Shown: in pieces, positions 12,579 through 23,251 of the stretch | Layout of the letters: each line of letters begins with the position of its first letter | Numbering within the stretch: the stretch's first letter is position 1 | Assembly: GCF_003966895.1 (NCBI RefSeq) | Contig: NZ_AP018449.1 | Location: 2,373,501 to 2,437,500 of the forward strand | Source: Methylomusa anaerophila | Lineage (GTDB): Bacteria; Bacillota; Negativicutes; Sporomusales; Sporomusaceae | Length of the DNA: 64,000 nucleotides | Direction: 5' to 3' | The notes under the pieces: generated by a model | Database searches by the model: none | What the model was told of the DNA's origin: nothing | The model's input: the letters and a program-made list of their open reading frames with translations, nothing else | Position numbers and translations under genes: made by a program

Positions 12579-13559
12579 ATGAAAATGGCTGATATTTACG
12601 GGAGCAATCGGTCTGACTTCTTATTCGGCGGCAGCGGCAGCGACGCGATCTACGGCTATGACCGTTCCGACCTTCTGTTTGGCGGGGACGGCGACGACTC
12701 ACTCGATGGCGGGGACGGTGACGACCTGCTGTATGGCGGCGGCGGCAGCGACTACTTGTACGGCGGCAGCGGCAGTGACTTGTTGTTTGGCGGCGAGGGC
12801 AGTGACTATCTGGACGGCGGCGAGGGCAGTGACGTGCTGTTTGGCGGCGCCGGCGACGATTATCTGGACGGCGGCGAGGGTGACGACCTGCTTTTCGGCG
12901 GCGAAGGCAACGACCTGCTGTTTGGCGGCGCCGGCAATGACCTGCTTTTCGGCGGCGAGGGCAACGACTTGCTTTTCGGTGGCGAGGACAACGACTTGCT
13001 TTTCGGCAGTGGCGGCGACGACTGGCTGGACGGCGGCGACGGCAGCGACGACCTGTACGGCGGCGCCGGCAACGACACCTATATTGTGGACAATCCCGGC
13101 GATGCGGTGCAGGAGAATCCCGGGGAAGGTGTCGACTCCGTAACCCTCTTGAATCTCACCAGCTATACCCTGCCGGATAACGTGGAAAACCTGTTTGGCA
13201 TCAATACGGACGGTCTCATCCTGACCGGCAACAGCCTGGACAACATAATCGACGGCGGCGACGGCAGCGACACCCTCTATGGCGGCAGCGGCAGCGACGT
13301 CTACAGCTTCCAGGGCGACTTCGGCCATGATACCATTGCCGCGGCCCCGGACAACCGCTATGACACGATCGACTTCAGCGCCTTTGCCAGTTCCGCCGCC
13401 GCCGTCGGCCTCGGCGGCAGCAGCGGCGGCGACCTCATCGTCACCATCGGCGCCAATACCGTCACCATCGCCGACTGGGACCAAAGCGGCGGCAACAGGC
13501 TCAGCACCTTCGTCTTCAGCGACGGCGTCAGGACAACCAACGGCACAAGCTGGCTGTAA
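12579..13559 (+). CDS. RTX-type calcium-binding repeat protein
   Basis: 326 residues, with roughly the first 170 made of glycine- and aspartate-rich nonapeptides of the type GGxGxDxLx (for example [18 protein letters not shown]). These fold into a calcium-filled beta-roll. A second short repeat block around residues 225-250 is followed by a C-terminal part with [14 protein letters not shown] and ending TNGTSWL, resembling the C-terminal regions of type I secretion substrates. No signal peptide is seen, so type I export is expected, but no HlyB/HlyD genes are nearby; a TolC-like gene lies at 50.8 kb. ATG 12579 follows AAAGGAGTGA. The GC-rich repeats create long spurious frames on the other strand. 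Function beyond calcium binding is unknown. Confidence 0.85.
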
Positions 13560-13727: not shown

Positions 13728-13749
13728 AAAAAGCAGAAAAGGAAAATAC

Positions 13750-13960
13750 AGGGATAGGTGCCCTTGGGGCTTAATAGGGAAGACCGGTGTGATGCCGGCG
13801 CGGTCCCGCCACTGTAACGGGGAGCAATCTCGCCTAGTTGCCACTGAAGCGGTCTGCTTCGGGAAGGCGCGGGGAAGCGATGAGCCGGAGTCAGGAGAAC
13901 TGCCTGTCCGGCAATCGCCATTTGACCTGCGAGCGACAGGGAGGAGATTACGAACGGCCG
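13750..13960 (+). ncRNA. Cobalamin riboswitch 1
   Basis: Adenosylcobalamin-family riboswitch: start GGGATAGGTGCC, the purine-rich core GGGAAGACCGGTGTGATGCC, the B12 box GCCACTGTAACGGGGAGC, then GATGAGCCGGAGTCAGGAG and GACCTGCGAGCGACAGG. The next stem-loop (13992-14014) is an intrinsic terminator, so ligand binding probably ends transcription before the receptor gene. A nearly identical riboswitch is at 21590-21788. Open frames across this RNA are not genes. Confidence 0.95.
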
Positions 13961-13991: not shown

Positions 13992-14014
13992 ACTCCCGTG
14001 AGGGAGTTTTTTTT
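13992..14014 (+). terminator. Riboswitch-controlled terminator 1
   Basis: ACTCCC-GTGA-GGGAGT followed by eight T residues, immediately downstream of the cobalamin aptamer; the expected expression platform. Confidence 0.85.
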
Positions 14015-14052
14015 ATATAATCCTTGTATCAACATGGAGGGGGAGAAATTGG

Positions 14053-17000
14053 TTGAGACAACACAAAGCAAAACAAGCAAAGCAAAGCGGCAAGTTAAAG
14101 AAAAAAGCTTTGGCCATGCGGATCTGCTGCGCCCTGGCCCTGGGTTTCGCGGCCCAGCCCGGGGGCCCTGCCTATGCGGCTGAAGCGGGGGCCTCGGTGA
14201 CGGTGGAGGCGGATAGCGTGAAAGAAACGACGGCGGATGCTTCCGGCCAAATAAATTACGGTACGTCTTATACAGACGTGACCATCCAAAATAGCGGCCG
14301 CTGGCGGCCGATGGATGCCATAACGTTTGGCGATCCGTACTATCTTCCGGTTTACGAGATTTATATCGATAAGCTTGACGTAAAGGCCGGCGGCATTATT
14401 GATTTGACCTGGCAGGAAACGCCTAATCCGGTGTTTTGGGGAGAACAGTTTGGAATAGGCGGGAGTAACTTTTTCCGTAATTTATGGGTAACGGACGCCA
14501 CGCTGGCGGACGGCGCGGTTTTCCGGATCAGCGCGGCACCTGCCGTCTATAATGGGGAATACTCTCTCAGTGTCACCCCGTCAGTGAATCGTATCACTTT
14601 GGGAAGCTATACCAGCCCGGTGGCCGGCGGCGGCACAATATATGTCCAGCTTGGCAATATCATCGGTTTTGATCCGCTGAAGATCAACAGCAGTTCGAAG
14701 ACTTTCGGAACAAGCGGGACGAGGTTTTTAACAATTTATGAACAAACATCCGGCCAGTTCCGGATTGCCGGCCAGGCCTCCTATCTGGACGCCCCCCTGA
14801 ATGTCTACAAAGTGACGCCGGTGATCGAGACTTCGGAGGCAGGCGGCAACGAGTATCAACCCGAATATATGGTGTTTGCCGATCTGCTGGACTATACCGT
14901 CGACAACACCGGCCTTCTGTCGGAGTCGGCCAAAACCGCCGGCGACATGCAGCTGGCGATGCGCAACCTGTGGCGGCTGGAAAATGCCAACACCCTCAGC
15001 CGCCTGGACGAACTGCACACCCCCGAGGCCAGGCGCCGGGAAGGCATCTGGACCAACGCCTACGGCGGCCGGTTTACCAATAACAGCAGCTACGGCCGCA
15101 GCGTGCGGGAAAACTATCACGGCCTGCAAGTCGGCTACGATCAGGAGCGCCCCGGCGGTTTCTACGGCGGCCGGCTGTATACCGGGCTATTCTTCCAGCA
15201 GACCAGGGCCGACACCGGCCTTCATACCGGCAGCGGCAGCTCCGAGAGCAGCGGCTTCGGCGCCTATGCCGCCTGGGTGGGCCGTAACGGCCGCTATCTG
15301 GACCTCATGCTGCGGGGCTCCAAACTCCACAACGATTACTATTTTTACAGCAACGGCGGCAAAATCGACGCCGACTACCATGCCTGGGCCTTCGGCCTCA
15401 ATGCCCGCTACGGCCTGCATAAACCCCTGACCAACGGCTGGTTCTGGGAACCCCACGTCGGTCTGGCCGCCGGCCGGATCGATGACGCGGATTATCCCAC
15501 CAGCAACGGCTTGCAGGTGACCCAAGGCAAGGTGGACGTTCTGACCGGGCAGGTGGGCGTGCTGGCCGGCCGGTCCCTGGGCGAAAAAGGGAATTTCTAC
15601 GCCAGGGTGACGGTCAACCATGATTTCGCCGGCAGCGGGTCCCTGCGGGGCAGCTATTCCGGCGGGACCCAGGCCATAGAAACCGGCGCCGCCAGGGATA
15701 CCTGGTGCGAGCTGGCCCTGGGCGCCAATGCCAGGATCTCCCCCAGCGGCAATTTCAACGTGAATGTGCTCCACACCTTCGGCGGCGATGTCAAGACCGA
15801 CTGGCAGGTAAACGGCGGCTTCAACTGGCGGTGGGGCGGCTTCGCTTCCCGGCAGAAACCGCCGGCTCAGCCCCAGGAGGCGGCAGCGCCGGCCGTGACG
15901 CCGGCAGCGGTTGCCGGCAGTACGCCGGCGAGCGGGCCTGAACCGCCGGCGGAGGGCGCCGGCAGCAACAGCCTGATCGCCGCCGGCGAAGCAATAGGCG
16001 CCGGCGACGACCTGGCGCTGCCGGTTGCCGGGCCGGACAAGCAGCCGGTCGCTGTCGCCCGTGACGGCGCCGCCGCCGGCCAGCCCGGCCCAACCGACCT
16101 TTCCCCCGAACCGGCTGCGACTGACGAACCCAGTCCGGCGCCGGCGCCCGCCCCTGCCGGGGAAAGCGCCCCTGCTTCCGGCTACGCCCTGGAGCCGGTG
16201 GTGGTGGAAGCGCCCCGCCCGGCGTGGGAGGACAAGCTGTCCCCCGGCACCGTGACCGTCATTGAACCGGATAAATACAAAGGCGAGCAAAAAACGCTGC
16301 CCGACCTCCTGAAGGAAGTCCCCGGCGTGCATGTGCGCTATTCCGCCGGCGGCATCGGCCAGTACACCACCGTCTCCGTGCGGGGCAGCACCGCCTCCCA
16401 GGTGGGGGTGTTCGTCGACGGCGTGCTGACCAATCTGGGGGGCGACGCGGCGGTGGACATCTCCACCATCCCGGTGAAAAACGTGGCCCGGATTGAGGTG
16501 TACCGGGGCTATGTCCCGGCCCGCTTCGGCGGCACCTACATGGGCGGCGTCATCAACATCGTCACCAAAAAGCCGGAAAAAGCCGATATTTCCGCTTCCT
16601 ACGGGCAACGCTCCTGGGGCGGCTACACCGGCAGCCTGCAGGTGGATGCCCCCCTGGGCAGCGGCTCCTTAATGGTGGGAATCAACCGGGACCAAAGCGA
16701 CGGGGATTTCCGCTATACGAATTTTGGTTATCAGAATGGTATTGCTACCCTACTGGCGTCTTATGAGCAATCTGTTGCAGATCTCGAAGGTCAGATTGCC
16801 CGGGGCGAGATTTCCGCCGACAACACGGATTATATTAGAGAGAAAAACTACTTGGCCTATCTCAAGCGTCTTTCGCCGACCCGCTATCGCATGAATAACA
16901 GCTATAAAAATACCGACGCGCTCCTCAAATGGCAGGATGAGCACTGGCAGGTCAAGGCCGGCTGGAAGCAAATCGACCGGCTGATGCCGCTATCACTTAG

Positions 17001-18444
17001 TGGCAACACATGCTGGGATAAGGAGGATGTGCCTGATGAATATTCGCCCGACGCGCCAGGTCCGTCCTACCAGAAGACTAATCTGAGGAAGAGACAGGAG
17101 CTTACCGCCAAAGATATTCTGGTCGGCCGGCGGGATACCAGCGGCAACCTGGAATGGGGCTGGAATGTCAATTATCTGGACCAGGAGAAAAGGTACAGCA
17201 ATCCTGATCTTGCACCAGGCAGCTATGCCATGACGAAGCCGCTCTCCGTCTGGAGCGCTTATGACTCCCGCAGGTTCGGCGCTTCGCTGGACGGGTCCTT
17301 CAAAGCCGGCAACCATCTGCTGGACTTCCTGCTGAACTATTCCCGCGAAACAATGGATATTAAGGGATGGAGAATGGATGATATTAATTCAATAGCTAAC
17401 AAGCAATGGAAATATAAATATCGCCAAACCCTCTTTAATGTCCAGCTGCAGGATACCATTACCCTGAATGATGCCGGCGACCTGTGGTTTACTCCCAGTA
17501 TCCGCTACAACTCTTCCGATATATTAGGCAGTTCCCGGGAAAAAAGGGGGGGGGGATGGTTGAAGGCGGACGATGAACAGAGAGACAGCAAGACCACCTG
17601 GCAGTTCGCCCTGAAAAAGAAGGTGAGCAACAGTCTGACCTTGCGCGCTTCCTACGGCAAGTACTACCGGCTGTTGAACCTTTATGAGATTGCCGGCGAC
17701 GGGGCCGGCATTCTGCCGCGCCCCGGTACTGATGCGCACGGTAACGCTTGGGGCTCCGTTTATCCGCAGCCGGAAGAGGGAATCCAGTGGGATGTGGGCG
17801 CTGCCTGGAAGGGCAGGTGGCTCAAGGCCGACGCCGATATCTCCCTGACCTATTTCAGCCGTCGGTCGGAAAATCTGCTGCAACTGCAGCGGTATGGCAT
17901 TAACAACTGGTGCTATGTGAATGCGGCCAAAGGCAAAGCCAGCGGCGTGGAACTGCAGAGCAATCTGACCTGGGCCAAATGGGATCTCAATCTGGCCGCT
18001 ACCTATGTACATGCCAGAAGTTCTTCCACTACCGGTAATACTCCCGCCGGCCTTTATACCTGGAATGATTACCCTATGACCTATACGCCGGAATGGGAAG
18101 GAAAGCTGCGCCTGACCTACCGTCCGGACAGCAAGACAGCCCTGTTCACGGAAATAAACTATACGGGCGAACAGTATTACGCCGATAGTTTATCTACTTT
18201 GGGTGGTGGTTCTAGTCAATATATGCAGACGGCGCTTACTACCGTAGGGTTGGGCTGCCGGTACCAACTGAACAAAAATGCCCAGTTGGTTGTCGGCGTC
18301 AACGATCTTTTTGACAAGGGACCGGAACTGAAGGAGATTTATACGGAAACCGACGGTTACGGCCTAAATGTGAGGAAGGAGTCCAACGCTGCCTATCCGC
18401 TGCAGGGACGGACTTACTACGCGACAGTGCAATATAATTTTTAG
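14053..18444 (+). CDS. Autotransporter - TonB-dependent receptor fusion protein
   Basis: A continuous 1463-codon frame encoding two outer-membrane modules. TTG 14053 follows GGAGGGGGAG by 7 bases. Residues 1-44 are a signal peptide (KKKALAMRICCALALGF, cleavage near AYA-AEA). About 45-325 is a short passenger of unknown fold. About 330-597 is an autotransporter-type barrel, from GIWTNAYGGRFTNN to VNGGFNWRWGGF. About 598-710 is a Pro/Ala-rich linker. A TonB-box-like stretch (LEPVVVEAP) leads to the plug, with LPDLLKEVPGVHVRY, VSVRGSTASQVGVFVDGV and GGVINIVTKKPEK; a receptor barrel runs to the C-terminal aromatic end VQYNF. The topology is consistent, because the linker and plug would both be periplasmic. 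Being behind a cobalamin riboswitch points to uptake of a corrinoid. The fusion is unusual; ligand specificity is inferred. Confidence 0.88.
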   Translation: MRQHKAKQAKQSGKLKKKALAMRICCALALGFAAQPGGPAYAAEAGASVTVEADSVKETTADASGQINYGTSYTDVTIQNSGRWRPMDAITFGDPYYLPVYEIYIDKLDVKAGGIIDLTWQETPNPVFWGEQFGIGGSNFFRNLWVTDATLADGAVFRISAAPAVYNGEYSLSVTPSVNRITLGSYTSPVAGGGTIYVQLGNIIGFDPLKINSSSKTFGTSGTRFLTIYEQTSGQFRIAGQASYLDAPLNVYKVTPVIETSEAGGNEYQPEYMVFADLLDYTVDNTGLLSESAKTAGDMQLAMRNLWRLENANTLSRLDELHTPEARRREGIWTNAYGGRFTNNSSYGRSVRENYHGLQVGYDQERPGGFYGGRLYTGLFFQQTRADTGLHTGSGSSESSGFGAYAAWVGRNGRYLDLMLRGSKLHNDYYFYSNGGKIDADYHAWAFGLNARYGLHKPLTNGWFWEPHVGLAAGRIDDADYPTSNGLQVTQGKVDVLTGQVGVLAGRSLGEKGNFYARVTVNHDFAGSGSLRGSYSGGTQAIETGAARDTWCELALGANARISPSGNFNVNVLHTFGGDVKTDWQVNGGFNWRWGGFASRQKPPAQPQEAAAPAVTPAAVAGSTPASGPEPPAEGAGSNSLIAAGEAIGAGDDLALPVAGPDKQPVAVARDGAAAGQPGPTDLSPEPAATDEPSPAPAPAPAGESAPASGYALEPVVVEAPRPAWEDKLSPGTVTVIEPDKYKGEQKTLPDLLKEVPGVHVRYSAGGIGQYTTVSVRGSTASQVGVFVDGVLTNLGGDAAVDISTIPVKNVARIEVYRGYVPARFGGTYMGGVINIVTKKPEKADISASYGQRSWGGYTGSLQVDAPLGSGSLMVGINRDQSDGDFRYTNFGYQNGIATLLASYEQSVADLEGQIARGEISADNTDYIREKNYLAYLKRLSPTRYRMNNSYKNTDALLKWQDEHWQVKAGWKQIDRLMPLSLSGNTCWDKEDVPDEYSPDAPGPSYQKTNLRKRQELTAKDILVGRRDTSGNLEWGWNVNYLDQEKRYSNPDLAPGSYAMTKPLSVWSAYDSRRFGASLDGSFKAGNHLLDFLLNYSRETMDIKGWRMDDINSIANKQWKYKYRQTLFNVQLQDTITLNDAGDLWFTPSIRYNSSDILGSSREKRGGGWLKADDEQRDSKTTWQFALKKKVSNSLTLRASYGKYYRLLNLYEIAGDGAGILPRPGTDAHGNAWGSVYPQPEEGIQWDVGAAWKGRWLKADADISLTYFSRRSENLLQLQRYGINNWCYVNAAKGKASGVELQSNLTWAKWDLNLAATYVHARSSSTTGNTPAGLYTWNDYPMTYTPEWEGKLRLTYRPDSKTALFTEINYTGEQYYADSLSTLGGGSSQYMQTALTTVGLGCRYQLNKNAQLVVGVNDLFDKGPELKEIYTETDGYGLNVRKESNAAYPLQGRTYYATVQYNF

Positions 18445-18605: not shown

Positions 18606-19856
18606 ATGAGTATGAAACTGTTTAAAAAAGTATGGATCGTCTTAGCGCTGGTGATGGCCTTTGCTACCACCGCCTGGGCCAACTCCGCCTATACGGTGGT
18701 GAACTCCGGTTATAGCCAGGGGAAAGTGGGGACCATCACAAGCACCGGCTCCGTAACCCCCAGCGCCGTCTCCACGCCTTTGAACGGCGCCCCGGCGGTG
18801 CACTCCTTCACCGACGCCAACGGCCAGCCCCGGATGCTTGTTTATAACTATACTGCCGCTACAGGTAACCCTGAAGTCCTAATCTACAACCCGGCCACAT
18901 CCCCGTGGACCCAGGTGAAATCTATTGCCGATTTGGCCGGCGCCAACATTGTCAACTTATACGGCATCGCCACATCCGGGAGCTATCTCTACGCGGTGGA
19001 CTATGACACCGCGAAGATCGTTCAAATCAACATGGCGGGCGATGCCTACTCCGTGACCGCCACCTACACATTCCCGGGGACCACGGGCTATGAAAAACAC
19101 GGTGTGGCCATTGCCGCCGTGGGTGACTACGTCTACGGCCTGTTTACGGAAGTGGACGATGATTATGCGACCAACCCTAATTACCTGACCAGCAAAGTGG
19201 TTAAACTCAATAAAAGCACCTTGGCTGCAGTCGGCACTGCCGCTCAGGTGGGCAAAAACGCCTTCACCCTGAAGTCTTACAATAACAAGCTCTACGTTGC
19301 CGCCGTTGGCGGCAAGCAGCGGGATGACGGGACCTACAACAGCGGGGAGTCCAAGCTGAATGTGGTGAACCTCGCCGATATGACGGTGGCCACGCCTTTT
19401 ACGTCGGGCACGGCAATTCCGTACGAATTCCGGGATATTACCCTCAGCACCGCCGGCGATGCCTATCTTCTGGTCGGCAGGTACACCCCCGGCTACGCAA
19501 CAATGACCGGGAAGGTGTACAAAACCACAGCGACGGCTATCGCCTCCGGCAGCCTCGGCACGGAAAAACAGAGTTTCAACACCGCCGGTTACTACTGGGC
19601 GCTGCTTTATGAAACTGCCGCCGACCGGCTGTGGTTCGCCCAAGGCAACCAGGTCGACCTCCGCATCGCATCTACTTACACCTCCATAGTGAGTTTGCCG
19701 GCGCAAACGATACTGGGCGGCTCCCAATATCCCAACCTCAACTCCGTCGCCTTAATCGGGCAGGCGGGCGCCACCCTCCAGGGCTATCAGGACCCGGCCC
19801 TGCCCGGCGTGCAATCCGGCCTGAAAGCAGCCCGAAAAATCAAAACCACGAAGTAA
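18606..19856 (+). CDS. Secreted beta-propeller-like protein, candidate corrinoid-binding partner of the receptor
   Basis: About 416 residues with a clear signal peptide (KLFKKVWIVLALVMAF, cleavage after TTAWA) and no lipobox. The mature part is a series of beta-strand repeats with recurring xLYxxDYDTxKIVxINM, DYVYGLF, KLYVAAVGG and DAYLLVGRY elements, as in seven- or eight-bladed propellers. It lies 160 bases downstream of the riboswitch-controlled receptor gene with no terminator between them, so it is probably co-transcribed. In Bacteroidetes a surface propeller protein, BtuG, captures B12 for the BtuB receptor; this gene could be a non-homologous or distant counterpart (inference). Start ATG 18606 or 18612; AGGAGG at 18596-18601 fits both. 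Its last 30 codons are also found, degenerate, at 21891-21985. Confidence 0.72.
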   Translation: MSMKLFKKVWIVLALVMAFATTAWANSAYTVVNSGYSQGKVGTITSTGSVTPSAVSTPLNGAPAVHSFTDANGQPRMLVYNYTAATGNPEVLIYNPATSPWTQVKSIADLAGANIVNLYGIATSGSYLYAVDYDTAKIVQINMAGDAYSVTATYTFPGTTGYEKHGVAIAAVGDYVYGLFTEVDDDYATNPNYLTSKVVKLNKSTLAAVGTAAQVGKNAFTLKSYNNKLYVAAVGGKQRDDGTYNSGESKLNVVNLADMTVATPFTSGTAIPYEFRDITLSTAGDAYLLVGRYTPGYATMTGKVYKTTATAIASGSLGTEKQSFNTAGYYWALLYETAADRLWFAQGNQVDLRIASTYTSIVSLPAQTILGGSQYPNLNSVALIGQAGATLQGYQDPALPGVQSGLKAARKIKTTK

Positions 19857-20005
19857 TCCTATCGTTTTTTCCTGCGCCGCCGTTGGCTATACGGCGGTCC
19901 GGTGTTTGTAAAAGGAGCTGGTACTGTTGTACTGGCTCTTTTGCTTTGGCGCAGGGCCGGCCCTATTCGATAACTGTCTGCTTCTTAGAGAAACGAGGCG
20001 AGGAA

Positions 20006-20200
20006 ATGTTTTTGCGACAATACCGAAAAACCGCGGTTGCTGCCTTGATTGCGGGATTGCTTATTTTTACGCTGCCGGTTGCCGCTTTGGCCGACGCAGT
20101 GAATGACGGACCGGCGCCGGCCGCGAATCCCGCTGATCCGCCGGCCAACCCGCCGAGTGTCAAAAGGGACGGTTCTGTGACTCATTTAAAAACACAGTAG
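20006..20200 (+). pseudogene. Truncated copy of the secretin gene
   Basis: Starts exactly like the secretin at 22115 (signal peptide MFLRQYRKTAVAALIAGLLI) and shares its upstream 150 bases, but only about 50 codons remain, with a 66-bp deletion in the proline-rich part. At 20155 the homology ends in a REP-like element that supplies the final residues and stop. A reading frame of 64 codons persists and could still be translated into an exported stub, but no secretin domain is left. Confidence 0.85.
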
Positions 20201-20479: not shown

Positions 20480-20836
20480 ATGCCTATCGCTAAAGATAAG
20501 AAAGATTACGTAAATAAAATTATGGATGAAATAGTTGGCAGTATGCGCAGAATTTTTGGTGATGACTTACGCCAGGTAATCCTTTTTGGTTCGTATGCTC
20601 GTGGAGAAGAAGAAGTGTATTCAGATATGGATGTAATGGTGTTGGTCAATTTACGTGATGCTGAATTATGTAAATATAATAATGTTCTTGCAGAAGTAAT
20701 GACCGATATTTCTGTTAAATATGGTGTTCTTCCGGCAATTATTGATAAAAATTATGAACAGTTTTATCATTGGTTGCCAGTATTGCCTTTTTACCGTAAT
20801 GTAAAGAACGAAGGTATTGAATTTTATGCAAGCTGA
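20480..20836 (+). CDS. MNT-domain nucleotidyltransferase (antitoxin of MNT/HEPN pair)
   Basis: 118 residues of the minimal nucleotidyltransferase family (MntA type). The active-site signature GSYARGE...SDMDVMV (GS plus DxD) is intact. In known MntA/HepT systems this enzyme adds AMP to the partner HEPN RNase and blocks it. ATG 20480 lies 9 bases after AGGAAAGGAA. The gene overlaps the HEPN gene by about ten bases, the usual arrangement. Composition is much more AT-rich than the neighbouring receptor and secretin genes, consistent with separate acquisition. It sits between two REP-like elements. Confidence 0.88.
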   Translation: MPIAKDKKDYVNKIMDEIVGSMRRIFGDDLRQVILFGSYARGEEEVYSDMDVMVLVNLRDAELCKYNNVLAEVMTDISVKYGVLPAIIDKNYEQFYHWLPVLPFYRNVKNEGIEFYAS

Positions 20837-21233
20837 TATGTTAGAGTTGTCTAAGTATCGTATGTTAAAGGCGAAGGAATGTCTTGCGGATGCTCAGGAT
20901 GCTTTTGAAGAAAGTCGGCTAGCAAACTCAATTAACCGGTCATATTATGCGATGTTTCATGCAACTAGAGCATTATTGGCTATAGATAGTTTTGATTCTA
21001 AAAAACATTCAAGTATTTTAGGCTATTTTAATCAGCAGTATATTGCTAGTAAAAGGGTTGAAACGAATTATTACCAGATGCTGGCCAATGCTTTCAGGGT
21101 AAGGAATAAGACTGATTATGATGATTTTTATATTGTTAGCAGGGAAGAGACTTTGCAACAATTAAACAATGCTCAAACTTTTATCACATTCATGAATGCT
21201 TTCATTGATAGTTTGATAGAAATTAGTGAATAG
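20826..21233 (+). CDS. HEPN-domain protein (toxin of MNT/HEPN pair)
   Basis: About 135 residues, all-helical HEPN family (UPF0332/COG1895 type). Recognisable parts are ANSINRSYYAMFHATRALL, KKHSSILGYF and RNKTDYDDFYIV. HEPN partners of MNT enzymes are metal-independent RNases. The clear RxxxxH of the canonical HepT active site is not obvious here, so nuclease activity is uncertain. Start taken as ATG 20826 (MQADMLELSK), overlapping the MNT stop; ATG 20838 is possible. AT-rich like its partner. Confidence 0.82.
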   Translation: MQADMLELSKYRMLKAKECLADAQDAFEESRLANSINRSYYAMFHATRALLAIDSFDSKKHSSILGYFNQQYIASKRVETNYYQMLANAFRVRNKTDYDDFYIVSREETLQQLNNAQTFITFMNAFIDSLIEISE

Positions 21234-21560: not shown

Positions 21561-21589
21561 AAGAAGCAGAAAAGGAAAATACGGGATAG

Positions 21590-21788
21590 GTGCCCTTGGG
21601 GGCTTAATAGGGAAGACCGGTGTGATGCCGGCACGGTCCCGCCACTGTAACGGGGAGCAATCTCGCCTAGTTGCCACTGAAGCGGCCTGCTTTGGGAAGG
21701 CGCGGGGAAGCGATGAACCGGAGTCAGGAGAACTGCCTGTCCGGCAATCGCCATTTGACCTGCGAGCGACAGGGAGGAGATTACGGAA
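21590..21788 (+). ncRNA. Cobalamin riboswitch 2
   Basis: Near-identical duplicate of the riboswitch at 13750-13960: GGGATAGGTGCC, GGGAAGACCGGTGTGATGCC, GCCACTGTAACGGGGAGC and GACCTGCGAGCGACAGG are all conserved. Only scattered substitutions are seen, so it looks functional. Confidence 0.95.
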
Positions 21789-21890: not shown

Positions 21891-21985
21891 CTTAATCGGG
21901 CAGGCGGGCAGCACCAACCATCCAGGGCTATCAGGACCCGGCCCTGACCGGCGTGCAATCAGGTCTAAAAACAACGCGAAAAATC
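21891..21985 (+). pseudogene. Remnant of the 3' end of the propeller gene
   Basis: Matches the last part of the propeller gene (19751-19845), from CTTAATCGGGCAGGCGGGC through GGGCTATCAGGACCCGGCCC to CGCGAAAAATCAAAAC, with a small insertion that breaks the frame. It is joined directly to the riboswitch terminator region, so the receptor gene and most of the propeller gene are missing from this copy. Confidence 0.85.
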
Positions 21986-22114
21986 AAAACATTGGCTATA
22001 CGGCGGTCCGGTGTTTGTAAAAGGAGCTGGTACTGTTGTACTGGCTCTTTTGCTTTGGCGCAGGGCCGGCCCTATTCGATAACTGTCTGCTTCTTAGAGA
22101 AACGAGGCGAGAAA

Positions 22115-23251
22115 ATGTTTTTGCGACAATACCGAAAAACCGCGGTTGCTGCCTTGATTGCGGGATTGCTTATTTTTACGCTGCCGGTTGCCGCTTCGAC
22201 CGACGCGGTGAATGACGGACCGCCGCCGGCCGCTGCCGGTGCGGCGCCAGCCGGCGGCCCGGACAGTACGCCGGGGCAGGCGCCGGCGGCGAATCCCGCT
22301 GATCCGCCGGCCAACCCGCCGGATCAGGCTCCGGCGGCCGCGCCGCAGCCTGCCTTCGACCTGCCGGCCCCCGACCCCGGCCTGCCGGCAAATACCGGGC
22401 TGTCGCCGCTGGTCATCAAGCTGGAATACGTAAAGGCCGAGCAAGTGAAAGCGATGCTTGCCGCTTTATTTCCGGATAACCGGGTCAGGGCGGAAATTAT
22501 TAACGGCATGCTGGTGGCGGTCGGCAGCGAGGAGGACTGCGCCATGGTTAAGGACATGCTGGCCAGGATTGATGTCGCGCCGAAGCAGGTTATTTTTGAA
22601 GCCGAAGCGATCGAGGTATCGCGGGACGATGCCAGAAAAATCGGCATCGACTGGGGGCCGGTCACCGCCTTGCCGGGCGCGGCGACGACCGACGGCAGTT
22701 CTTTTCGCCTCGGGCTGGGCATTCCCAACCATGAGGAATACGGCGTCAATGTTTCGGCCACGATTCGCCATCTGGTGGAAACCAAAAAAGGCCGGCTGCT
22801 GGCCAGCCCGCGGATTGCCGCTTTGGACGGACAGACGGCGCAAATTCTCATCGGCGACAAGCTGGCGGTGGAAAGTACGCAGATTTCCAGCGGCACGACC
22901 ATCACCACGGTCACCTACGTGGAAGTGGGCATCAAACTGGAAGTGACGCCCACCATCCATGCGGACGGCACTATAAGCACCCATATCAAACCGGAAGTCA
23001 GCAACAAAACGGACACTACCAGCAGCGGCAACCCCAACATCCGGACCCGCCAGGCCGAAACAACGCTGCGGGTAAAAAACGGCGAAACAATCGTGCTTGG
23101 CGGTCTGATCCAGCGCCAGGAAACCCAGGATACGGTCAAATTCCCGCTATTGGGCGATATACCCATCATCGGGCAGTTCTTTCGCTCGACAACCAAGGAA
23201 AAAACTGAAAGCGAGCTGATTATCCTAATTACCCCGAAATTGATAGAGTAG
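22115..23251 (+). CDS. Compact secretin-family outer-membrane protein
   Basis: 378 residues: signal peptide (MFLRQYRKTAVAALIAGLLI, cleavage near VAAST), a Pro/Ala-rich stretch to about residue 90, one secretin N-type domain (LVIKLEYVKAEQVKAMLAAL...VGSEEDCAMVKDMLARID), then the secretin pore domain with VETKKGRLLASPRI, ETTLRVKNGETIVLGGLI and FPLLGDIPIIGQFF. Secretins (GspD, PilQ) form gated pores in the outer membrane. This one is much shorter than GspD or PilQ and has no adjacent secretion genes. It stands behind cobalamin riboswitch 2, an unusual regulation. A possible role is export of the secreted proteins of the island or entry of a large corrinoid; both are inference. An upstream in-frame extension from 21953 is leftover duplication, not coding. 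Confidence 0.88.
   Translation: MFLRQYRKTAVAALIAGLLIFTLPVAASTDAVNDGPPPAAAGAAPAGGPDSTPGQAPAANPADPPANPPDQAPAAAPQPAFDLPAPDPGLPANTGLSPLVIKLEYVKAEQVKAMLAALFPDNRVRAEIINGMLVAVGSEEDCAMVKDMLARIDVAPKQVIFEAEAIEVSRDDARKIGIDWGPVTALPGAATTDGSSFRLGLGIPNHEEYGVNVSATIRHLVETKKGRLLASPRIAALDGQTAQILIGDKLAVESTQISSGTTITTVTYVEVGIKLEVTPTIHADGTISTHIKPEVSNKTDTTSSGNPNIRTRQAETTLRVKNGETIVLGGLIQRQETQDTVKFPLLGDIPIIGQFFRSTTKEKTESELIILITPKLIE

Follow-up and report, generated by a model that had tools for sequence, protein, structure and literature searches.

Within a 64,000-nt stretch of the Methylomusa anaerophila genome (contig NZ_AP018449.1, forward strand, positions 2,373,501 to 2,437,500; hereafter the window, numbered from its first letter), the gene at 14053-18444 is a genuine single-frame fusion of an autotransporter (AT) to a TonB-dependent receptor (TBDR). 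The protein is probably a single-chain, two-barrel outer-membrane receptor for corrinoids (the vitamin B12 family), whose passenger docks a neighboring propeller protein or aids capture. We favor this reading because the gene lies behind a cobalamin riboswitch, the receptor has BtuB relatives, a BtuG-like propeller is encoded nearby and propeller-autotransporters occur at sister loci. Corrinoid uptake by the fusion receptor is well supported, with a corrinoid as the presumed ligand. The features of the locus are as follows.

13739-13921, + strand: cobalamin riboswitch aptamer (RF00174; 113.0 bits, gathering score 31.5, full length 1-189)
13992-14014, + strand: intrinsic terminator ACTCCCGTGAGGGAGT plus T-run, probable riboswitch expression platform (hairpin, z -2.49)
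14036-14045, + strand: ribosome-binding site GGAGGGGGAG, about 8 nt 5´ of the TTG start (sequence)
14053-18444, + strand: AT-TBDR fusion gene, 1463 residues (open reading frame, translation, Pfam)
14053-14178, + strand: signal peptide region, residues 1-42, resembling that of standalone B12-TBDR paralogs (sequence, comparison)
14179-14910, + strand: passenger, residues 43-286, with the family-specific WRPMD motif at 84-88 (AlphaFold2, low confidence)
14911-15012, + strand: AT pore helix, residues 287-320 (helix 245-278 of the AlphaFold2 model, plus 42)
15040-15831, + strand: 12-strand AT barrel, residues 330-593 (Pfam, TIGR01414, AlphaFold2, Foldseek)
15847-16176, + strand: Pro/Ala-rich linker, residues 599-708, ~110 residues (composition)
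16192-16212, + strand: TonB-box-like EPVVVEA, residues 714-720 (sequence)
16240-16551, + strand: TBDR plug domain, residues 730-833 (PF07715, E 3.1e-18; phmmer to BtuB, E 4.5e-19)
16552-18441, + strand: TBDR barrel with C-terminal aromatic YNF (PF00593, E 2e-31)
18606-19856, + strand: beta-propeller protein with signal peptide and BtuG-like fold (AlphaFold2 pTM 0.85; Foldseek; VIA)

One reading frame encodes two outer-membrane barrels

The frame opens with TTG at 14053, closes with a stop at 18444 and has zero internal stops; its full-length product would be ~155 kDa. A Pfam search of the protein placed the AT barrel (PF03797) at residues 332-571 (E 1.1e-33) and the receptor barrel (PF00593) at residues 1014-1419. 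Plug and receptor barrel both score above gathering, a predicted TonB box precedes the plug and the chain ends in the aromatic F1463, as expected of a TBDR. The linker is 20% proline and 27% alanine. For residues 43-612, AlphaFold2 was given the window protein aligned with segments of four related fusions and one further autotransporter; it predicted the pore helix and 12 long strands, with block-wise predicted local distance difference test (pLDDT) scores mostly of 67-94. The best PDB matches to the model, found with Foldseek, are the EspP, Hbp, BrkA and NalP barrels. The N-terminal half thus has the signal peptide, passenger, pore helix and 12-strand barrel of a type Va autotransporter; its barrel is not at the extreme C terminus, and 870 residues come after it. 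Together with the second membrane barrel, assigned by profile, these data define a multi-barrel outer-membrane protein.

The fusion recurs across Negativicutes

Among 380 sampled Negativicutes genomes, 20 carry a full-length single-frame fused copy, spanning 11 GTDB families, and further copies are truncated by contig ends. A search of 60 relatives likewise gave full-length fused homologs across many genera, and the 17 homologs compared with the window protein are 31-38% identical to it. Scanning contigs with a single sequence gave no matches, and an alignment-based scan, which mostly returned unrelated plugs, identified carriers in Sporomusa acidovorans, Pelosinus propionicus and an uncultured Phascolarctobacterium. 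Sporomusa termitida has at least three fused copies, one of them on the complete 131-kb plasmid pSPTER (L053, NZ_CP036260.1 40432-45762). RefSeq annotates that copy as one 1776-residue coding sequence, ´TonB-dependent receptor´, and the next coding sequence, the propeller, as ´hypothetical protein´; such labels are why the system has been overlooked. A second Pelosinus propionicus copy (L065 13210-17591) consists of two overlapping frames, reflecting a frameshift or sequencing error. Outside Negativicutes, no AT fusion was found among 151 Synergistota genomes.

Could the window gene be two separate genes joined by a frameshift or an assembly error? The trees of the TBDR and AT halves are incongruent and their GC differs (about 0.65 versus 0.53-0.55), as a join would predict. 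The identical architecture is nevertheless found in 20 genomes, as well as on a plasmid that is complete and annotated, and the linker keeps the frame and resembles those of the rest of the family. Since the join recurs in independent genomes, we ruled out an artefact, the chance of which we regard as negligible. The initial annotation, made from the letters alone, had described the same order of signal peptide, passenger, AT barrel, Pro/Ala linker, TonB-box-like segment, plug and receptor barrel in one uninterrupted frame. Its coordinates were exact and agree with Pfam and AlphaFold2: all three families that it named (PF03797, PF07715 and PF00593) were found far above cut-off, and residues 330-597, given there as a 12-strand barrel, contain the 12 modelled strands. 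Recurrence in independent genomes counters the possibility, raised there, of a frameshift or join between residues 598 and 710, and bears out its suggestion that related genomes might contain further examples.

The passengers of nearly all fused proteins have a WRPxD-type motif, roughly 190-350 residues ahead of the barrel, which none of the other autotransporters compared possess. The single exact match outside the set, L061/L030, is probably half of a fused gene truncated by a contig end. Across the 17 fused homologs, W84 and P86 of the passenger are invariant, as is V718 in the TonB-box-like segment, where E719 and A720 are nearly so. The shared WRPxD-type motif suggests a fixed job for the passenger rather than that of a variable adhesin. 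The linkers of the family (82-143 residues) are low in complexity and weakly conserved in sequence, and run into a conserved segment around PVVVEA-RPDWE-LSPG.

A cobalamin riboswitch precedes every fused gene with a usable flank

On the + strand of the window, the riboswitch is followed by the terminator hairpin with its T-run and then by the fusion gene. We counted 28 distinct fused genes whose 5´ flank could be used, and every one has at least one cobalamin riboswitch, some several, upstream on the same strand, either directly or before an OmpH-like or propeller gene of the same orientation. In Negativicutes, most standalone receptors of the family also have cobalamin riboswitches, and the same holds for the loci of the family searched in Synergistaceae, Sphingomonas and Deltaproteobacteria; none was found at loci L197, L200 and L201. 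Cobalamin riboswitches number 15 in the whole window genome, so the fusion locus is not its sole B12-regulated locus.

The receptor half is related to BtuB

By sequence, the nearest solved relatives of the receptor half are BtuB proteins (phmmer, plug region). The best TBDR family match is TIGR01779 TonB-B12 (7e-35), with TIGR01785 TonB-hemin near (1.5e-33). Given these nearly equal scores, the receptor might import another ligand (haem, a siderophore or a cobalt complex), with the riboswitch sensing corrinoid status only indirectly. We consider this quite improbable, in view of the riboswitch at all fused loci checked, BtuB as the best solved relative, the BtuG-like partner and the presence of CbiZ near some relatives.

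Two members of the same receptor family (L070 5598-8750 and L072 7725-11309) have an additional region past the TBDR barrel, which in L070 gives an OMP_b-brl-like match slightly under cut-off and in L072 resembles a separate 286-residue frame in the same genome. A C-terminally extended Sphingomonas-type receptor as a common form was ruled out, given one occurrence among 150 Sphingomonadaceae.

The neighboring gene encodes a BtuG-like propeller

The next gene after the fusion gene, at 18606-19856, has no Pfam match, but its predicted structure has a BtuG-like beta-propeller fold. The top two Foldseek matches of the model are BtuG2 and BtuG1 bound to cyanocobalamin, and VIA-align ranks 1-10 are all BtuG or BtuG-like (Z 28.2-29.5, compared to 26.9 for YncE). 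The lead over YncE is modest because propellers resemble one another, and the sequence profile finds BtuG weakly (E 7e-5), next to Kelch proteins. The protein lacks the lipobox Cys of the BtuG lipoproteins, as its signal ends ATTAWA-NSAY. In profile searches of about 60 loci, a propeller adjoins 25 of 29 fused genes.

Other neighbors at the fused loci of relatives encode CbiZ, CbiK-like, TonB, OmpH/Skp-like, papain-like and CHAT proteins. Leaderless papain-like and CHAT-domain proteins and two uncharacterised families recur next to fused genes within the cobalamin-regulated loci (L051 1317-3893, L060 10862-11803, L059 11200-12324). In L044-L060, most propeller genes next to fusions encode no signal peptide and start directly at the mature N-terminus, and several of these starts have a good Shine-Dalgarno site; Sporomusa termitida WP_170233417.1 is one leaderless example. 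Leaderless propellers are not restricted to double barrels, a possibility that was discarded on finding them beside standalone receptors as well.

Four fusion states and probable repeated recruitment of AT barrels

The same profile searches revealed four arrangements: (i) AT and receptor fused with the propeller separate, as in the 25 cases above; (ii) a standalone receptor and a separate propeller; (iii) a standalone receptor followed by a ~1700-2260-residue protein with a signal peptide, a propeller at the N terminus (E values as low as 5e-46) and, in complete frames, an AT barrel at the C terminus, with L196 and L202 as the clearest cases; and (iv) a receptor with an additional C-terminal region past the barrel, in one Sphingomonas and one Deltaproteobacteria metagenome-assembled genome. 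State (iii) would place homologous propellers on the surface via an autotransporter, and an AT partner for the receptor would thus be a recurring solution.

The 31 AT barrels of fused proteins all fall into a single clade, distinct from those of the propeller-AT proteins and of other autotransporters (support 99/98), so AT barrels probably joined the module on two or more occasions. The receptor tree unites the other fused receptors but places the window receptor firmly inside the standalone/propeller-AT clade (100/100). Because both this position and the signal peptide are of the standalone type, the window gene is either a recombinant of a fused-type AT with a standalone-type receptor or descends from a fused ancestor, with loss of the AT among its close relatives. 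One standalone receptor bears an autotransporter-type extended signal peptide (PF13018).

A model for corrinoid capture, and alternatives

When corrinoid is scarce, the riboswitch would permit read-through of the terminator, as expected from the behavior of its class, and the fusion gene would be expressed, probably together with the BtuG-like propeller. The BAM machinery is predicted to insert both barrels, the N-terminal one bringing the passenger to the cell surface while the Pro/Ala linker would remain periplasmic. The BtuB-like receptor would import the ligand with TonB energy received via the box at residues 714-720. Through the covalent link, the passenger would be held 1:1 next to the receptor mouth, where it most likely docks the propeller or aids corrinoid capture, a task that in Bacteroides falls to the lipid-anchored BtuG lids of BtuB. 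The separate propeller is more likely to be the capture protein, with the passenger as a dock or co-capture element.

Several points weigh against this model. The receptor scores 120.6 bits against a curated TIGR01779 cut-off of 599.7, a shortfall by which this rule does not class it as a BtuB equivalog. The passenger is poorly modelled, mostly with pLDDT under 50. The main difficulty is that a signal peptide is missing from the majority of propellers encoded next to fusions, which are thus ill-suited to be a surface partner in those species, although the window copy has one. Finally, the chain could be cleaved within the linker. If a periplasmic protease cut there, the fusion would serve only co-expression and co-assembly, and the AT, perhaps an adhesin, would act apart from the receptor. 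The long, poorly conserved linkers fit this idea, as do the aromatic terminal strand of each half and the existence of standalone receptors of the same family. We nevertheless think it unlikely, as the fusion is maintained across 11 families, the fused AT barrels all belong to one clade and the passengers have the WRPxD motif in common, unlike variable adhesins.

The leaderless propellers also raise the question of whether the AT passenger itself captures corrinoid while the propeller works in the periplasm or cytoplasm, perhaps as a carrier or storage protein. The good Shine-Dalgarno sites at several leaderless starts and the invariant W84 and P86 would agree with such a division of labor. 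Homologous propellers, however, are N-terminal autotransporter passengers in other Negativicutes, and those of Synergistaceae have a signal peptide and a C-terminal anchor-like tail, making this arrangement doubtful. We therefore retain the two-barrel corrinoid receptor with a docking or capture-aiding passenger.

The wider scenario, to which we give slightly less than an even chance, is that diderm Firmicutes evolved their own surface corrinoid capture, recruiting AT barrels twice (AT-BtuB and propeller-AT) and using the AT passenger as a lid or dock over the receptor. Sporomusa and its relatives are major corrinoid users and producers. Capture of the BtuB-BtuG kind may arise by AT fusion to the receptor in one lineage and to the propeller in another, where Bacteroides lipid-anchors the propeller. 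The fusion is also a class-wide, regulated case of two different barrel families in one chain and raises the question of how BAM assembles it.

The initial annotation had pictured tandem barrels, a periplasmic linker and a surface passenger beside the receptor. That arrangement fits the evidence and extends across the class; the suggested ´capture domain´ was a guess, since no substrate system was named (cobalamin riboswitch, BtuB-like receptor or BtuG-like propeller, with CbiZ, CbiK-like and TonB neighbors in relatives), and the propeller is the likelier capturer. It also knew of no described example. A literature search limited to open-licence papers found no description of an AT-TBDR fusion, and the outer-membrane proteome of Veillonella parvula lists TonB systems and autotransporters separately. 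Single chains containing two outer-membrane barrels are already known as a class, with GfcD/YjbH as an example (Solan et al. 2021, as cited in PMC9603273), and the AT-BtuB fusion appears to be new among them.

Other features of the window

An RTX calcium-binding repeat protein (12579-13559) is encoded immediately 5´ of the riboswitch on the same strand. A second cobalamin riboswitch (21571-21754, 113.8 bits) is located upstream of 21953-23251, whose short product has a secretin domain like the C-terminal part of GspD/PilQ; regulation of a secretin by B12 is unusual. Copies of the propeller gene´s 3´ end and of the secretin gene´s 5´ end form direct repeats of 88 and 242 nt (19759-20124 / 21903-22233, 84-98% identity), with a nucleotidyltransferase/HEPN-like pair (20480-21233) between them.

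Comparison with known systems

Escherichia coli BtuB is the nearest solved relative of the plug region of the receptor; compared to it, the window protein bears about 700 additional N-terminal residues and is under the TIGR01779 equivalog cut-off. The fusion shares the signal peptide, passenger, pore helix and 12-strand barrel with the type Va autotransporters EspP, Hbp, BrkA and NalP, and the extended signal peptide region (ESPR) in long fused forms is a further common feature, whereas a linker, plug and second barrel come after the AT barrel here. Known multi-barrel outer-membrane proteins also have two barrels per chain, but the fusion combines a classical AT translocator with a plugged TBDR. 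The closest parallel is Bacteroides BtuB-BtuG (PMC10404256, PMC6143338), likewise a TonB-dependent B12 receptor plus propeller in riboswitch-regulated loci. BtuG is a surface lipoprotein that binds corrinoids and caps BtuB (PMC10404256), and it is the best match to the propeller model, at a sequence identity of only about 13%. Unlike in Bacteroides, the propeller here has no lipid anchor, and the receptor bears an N-terminal AT passenger and barrel.

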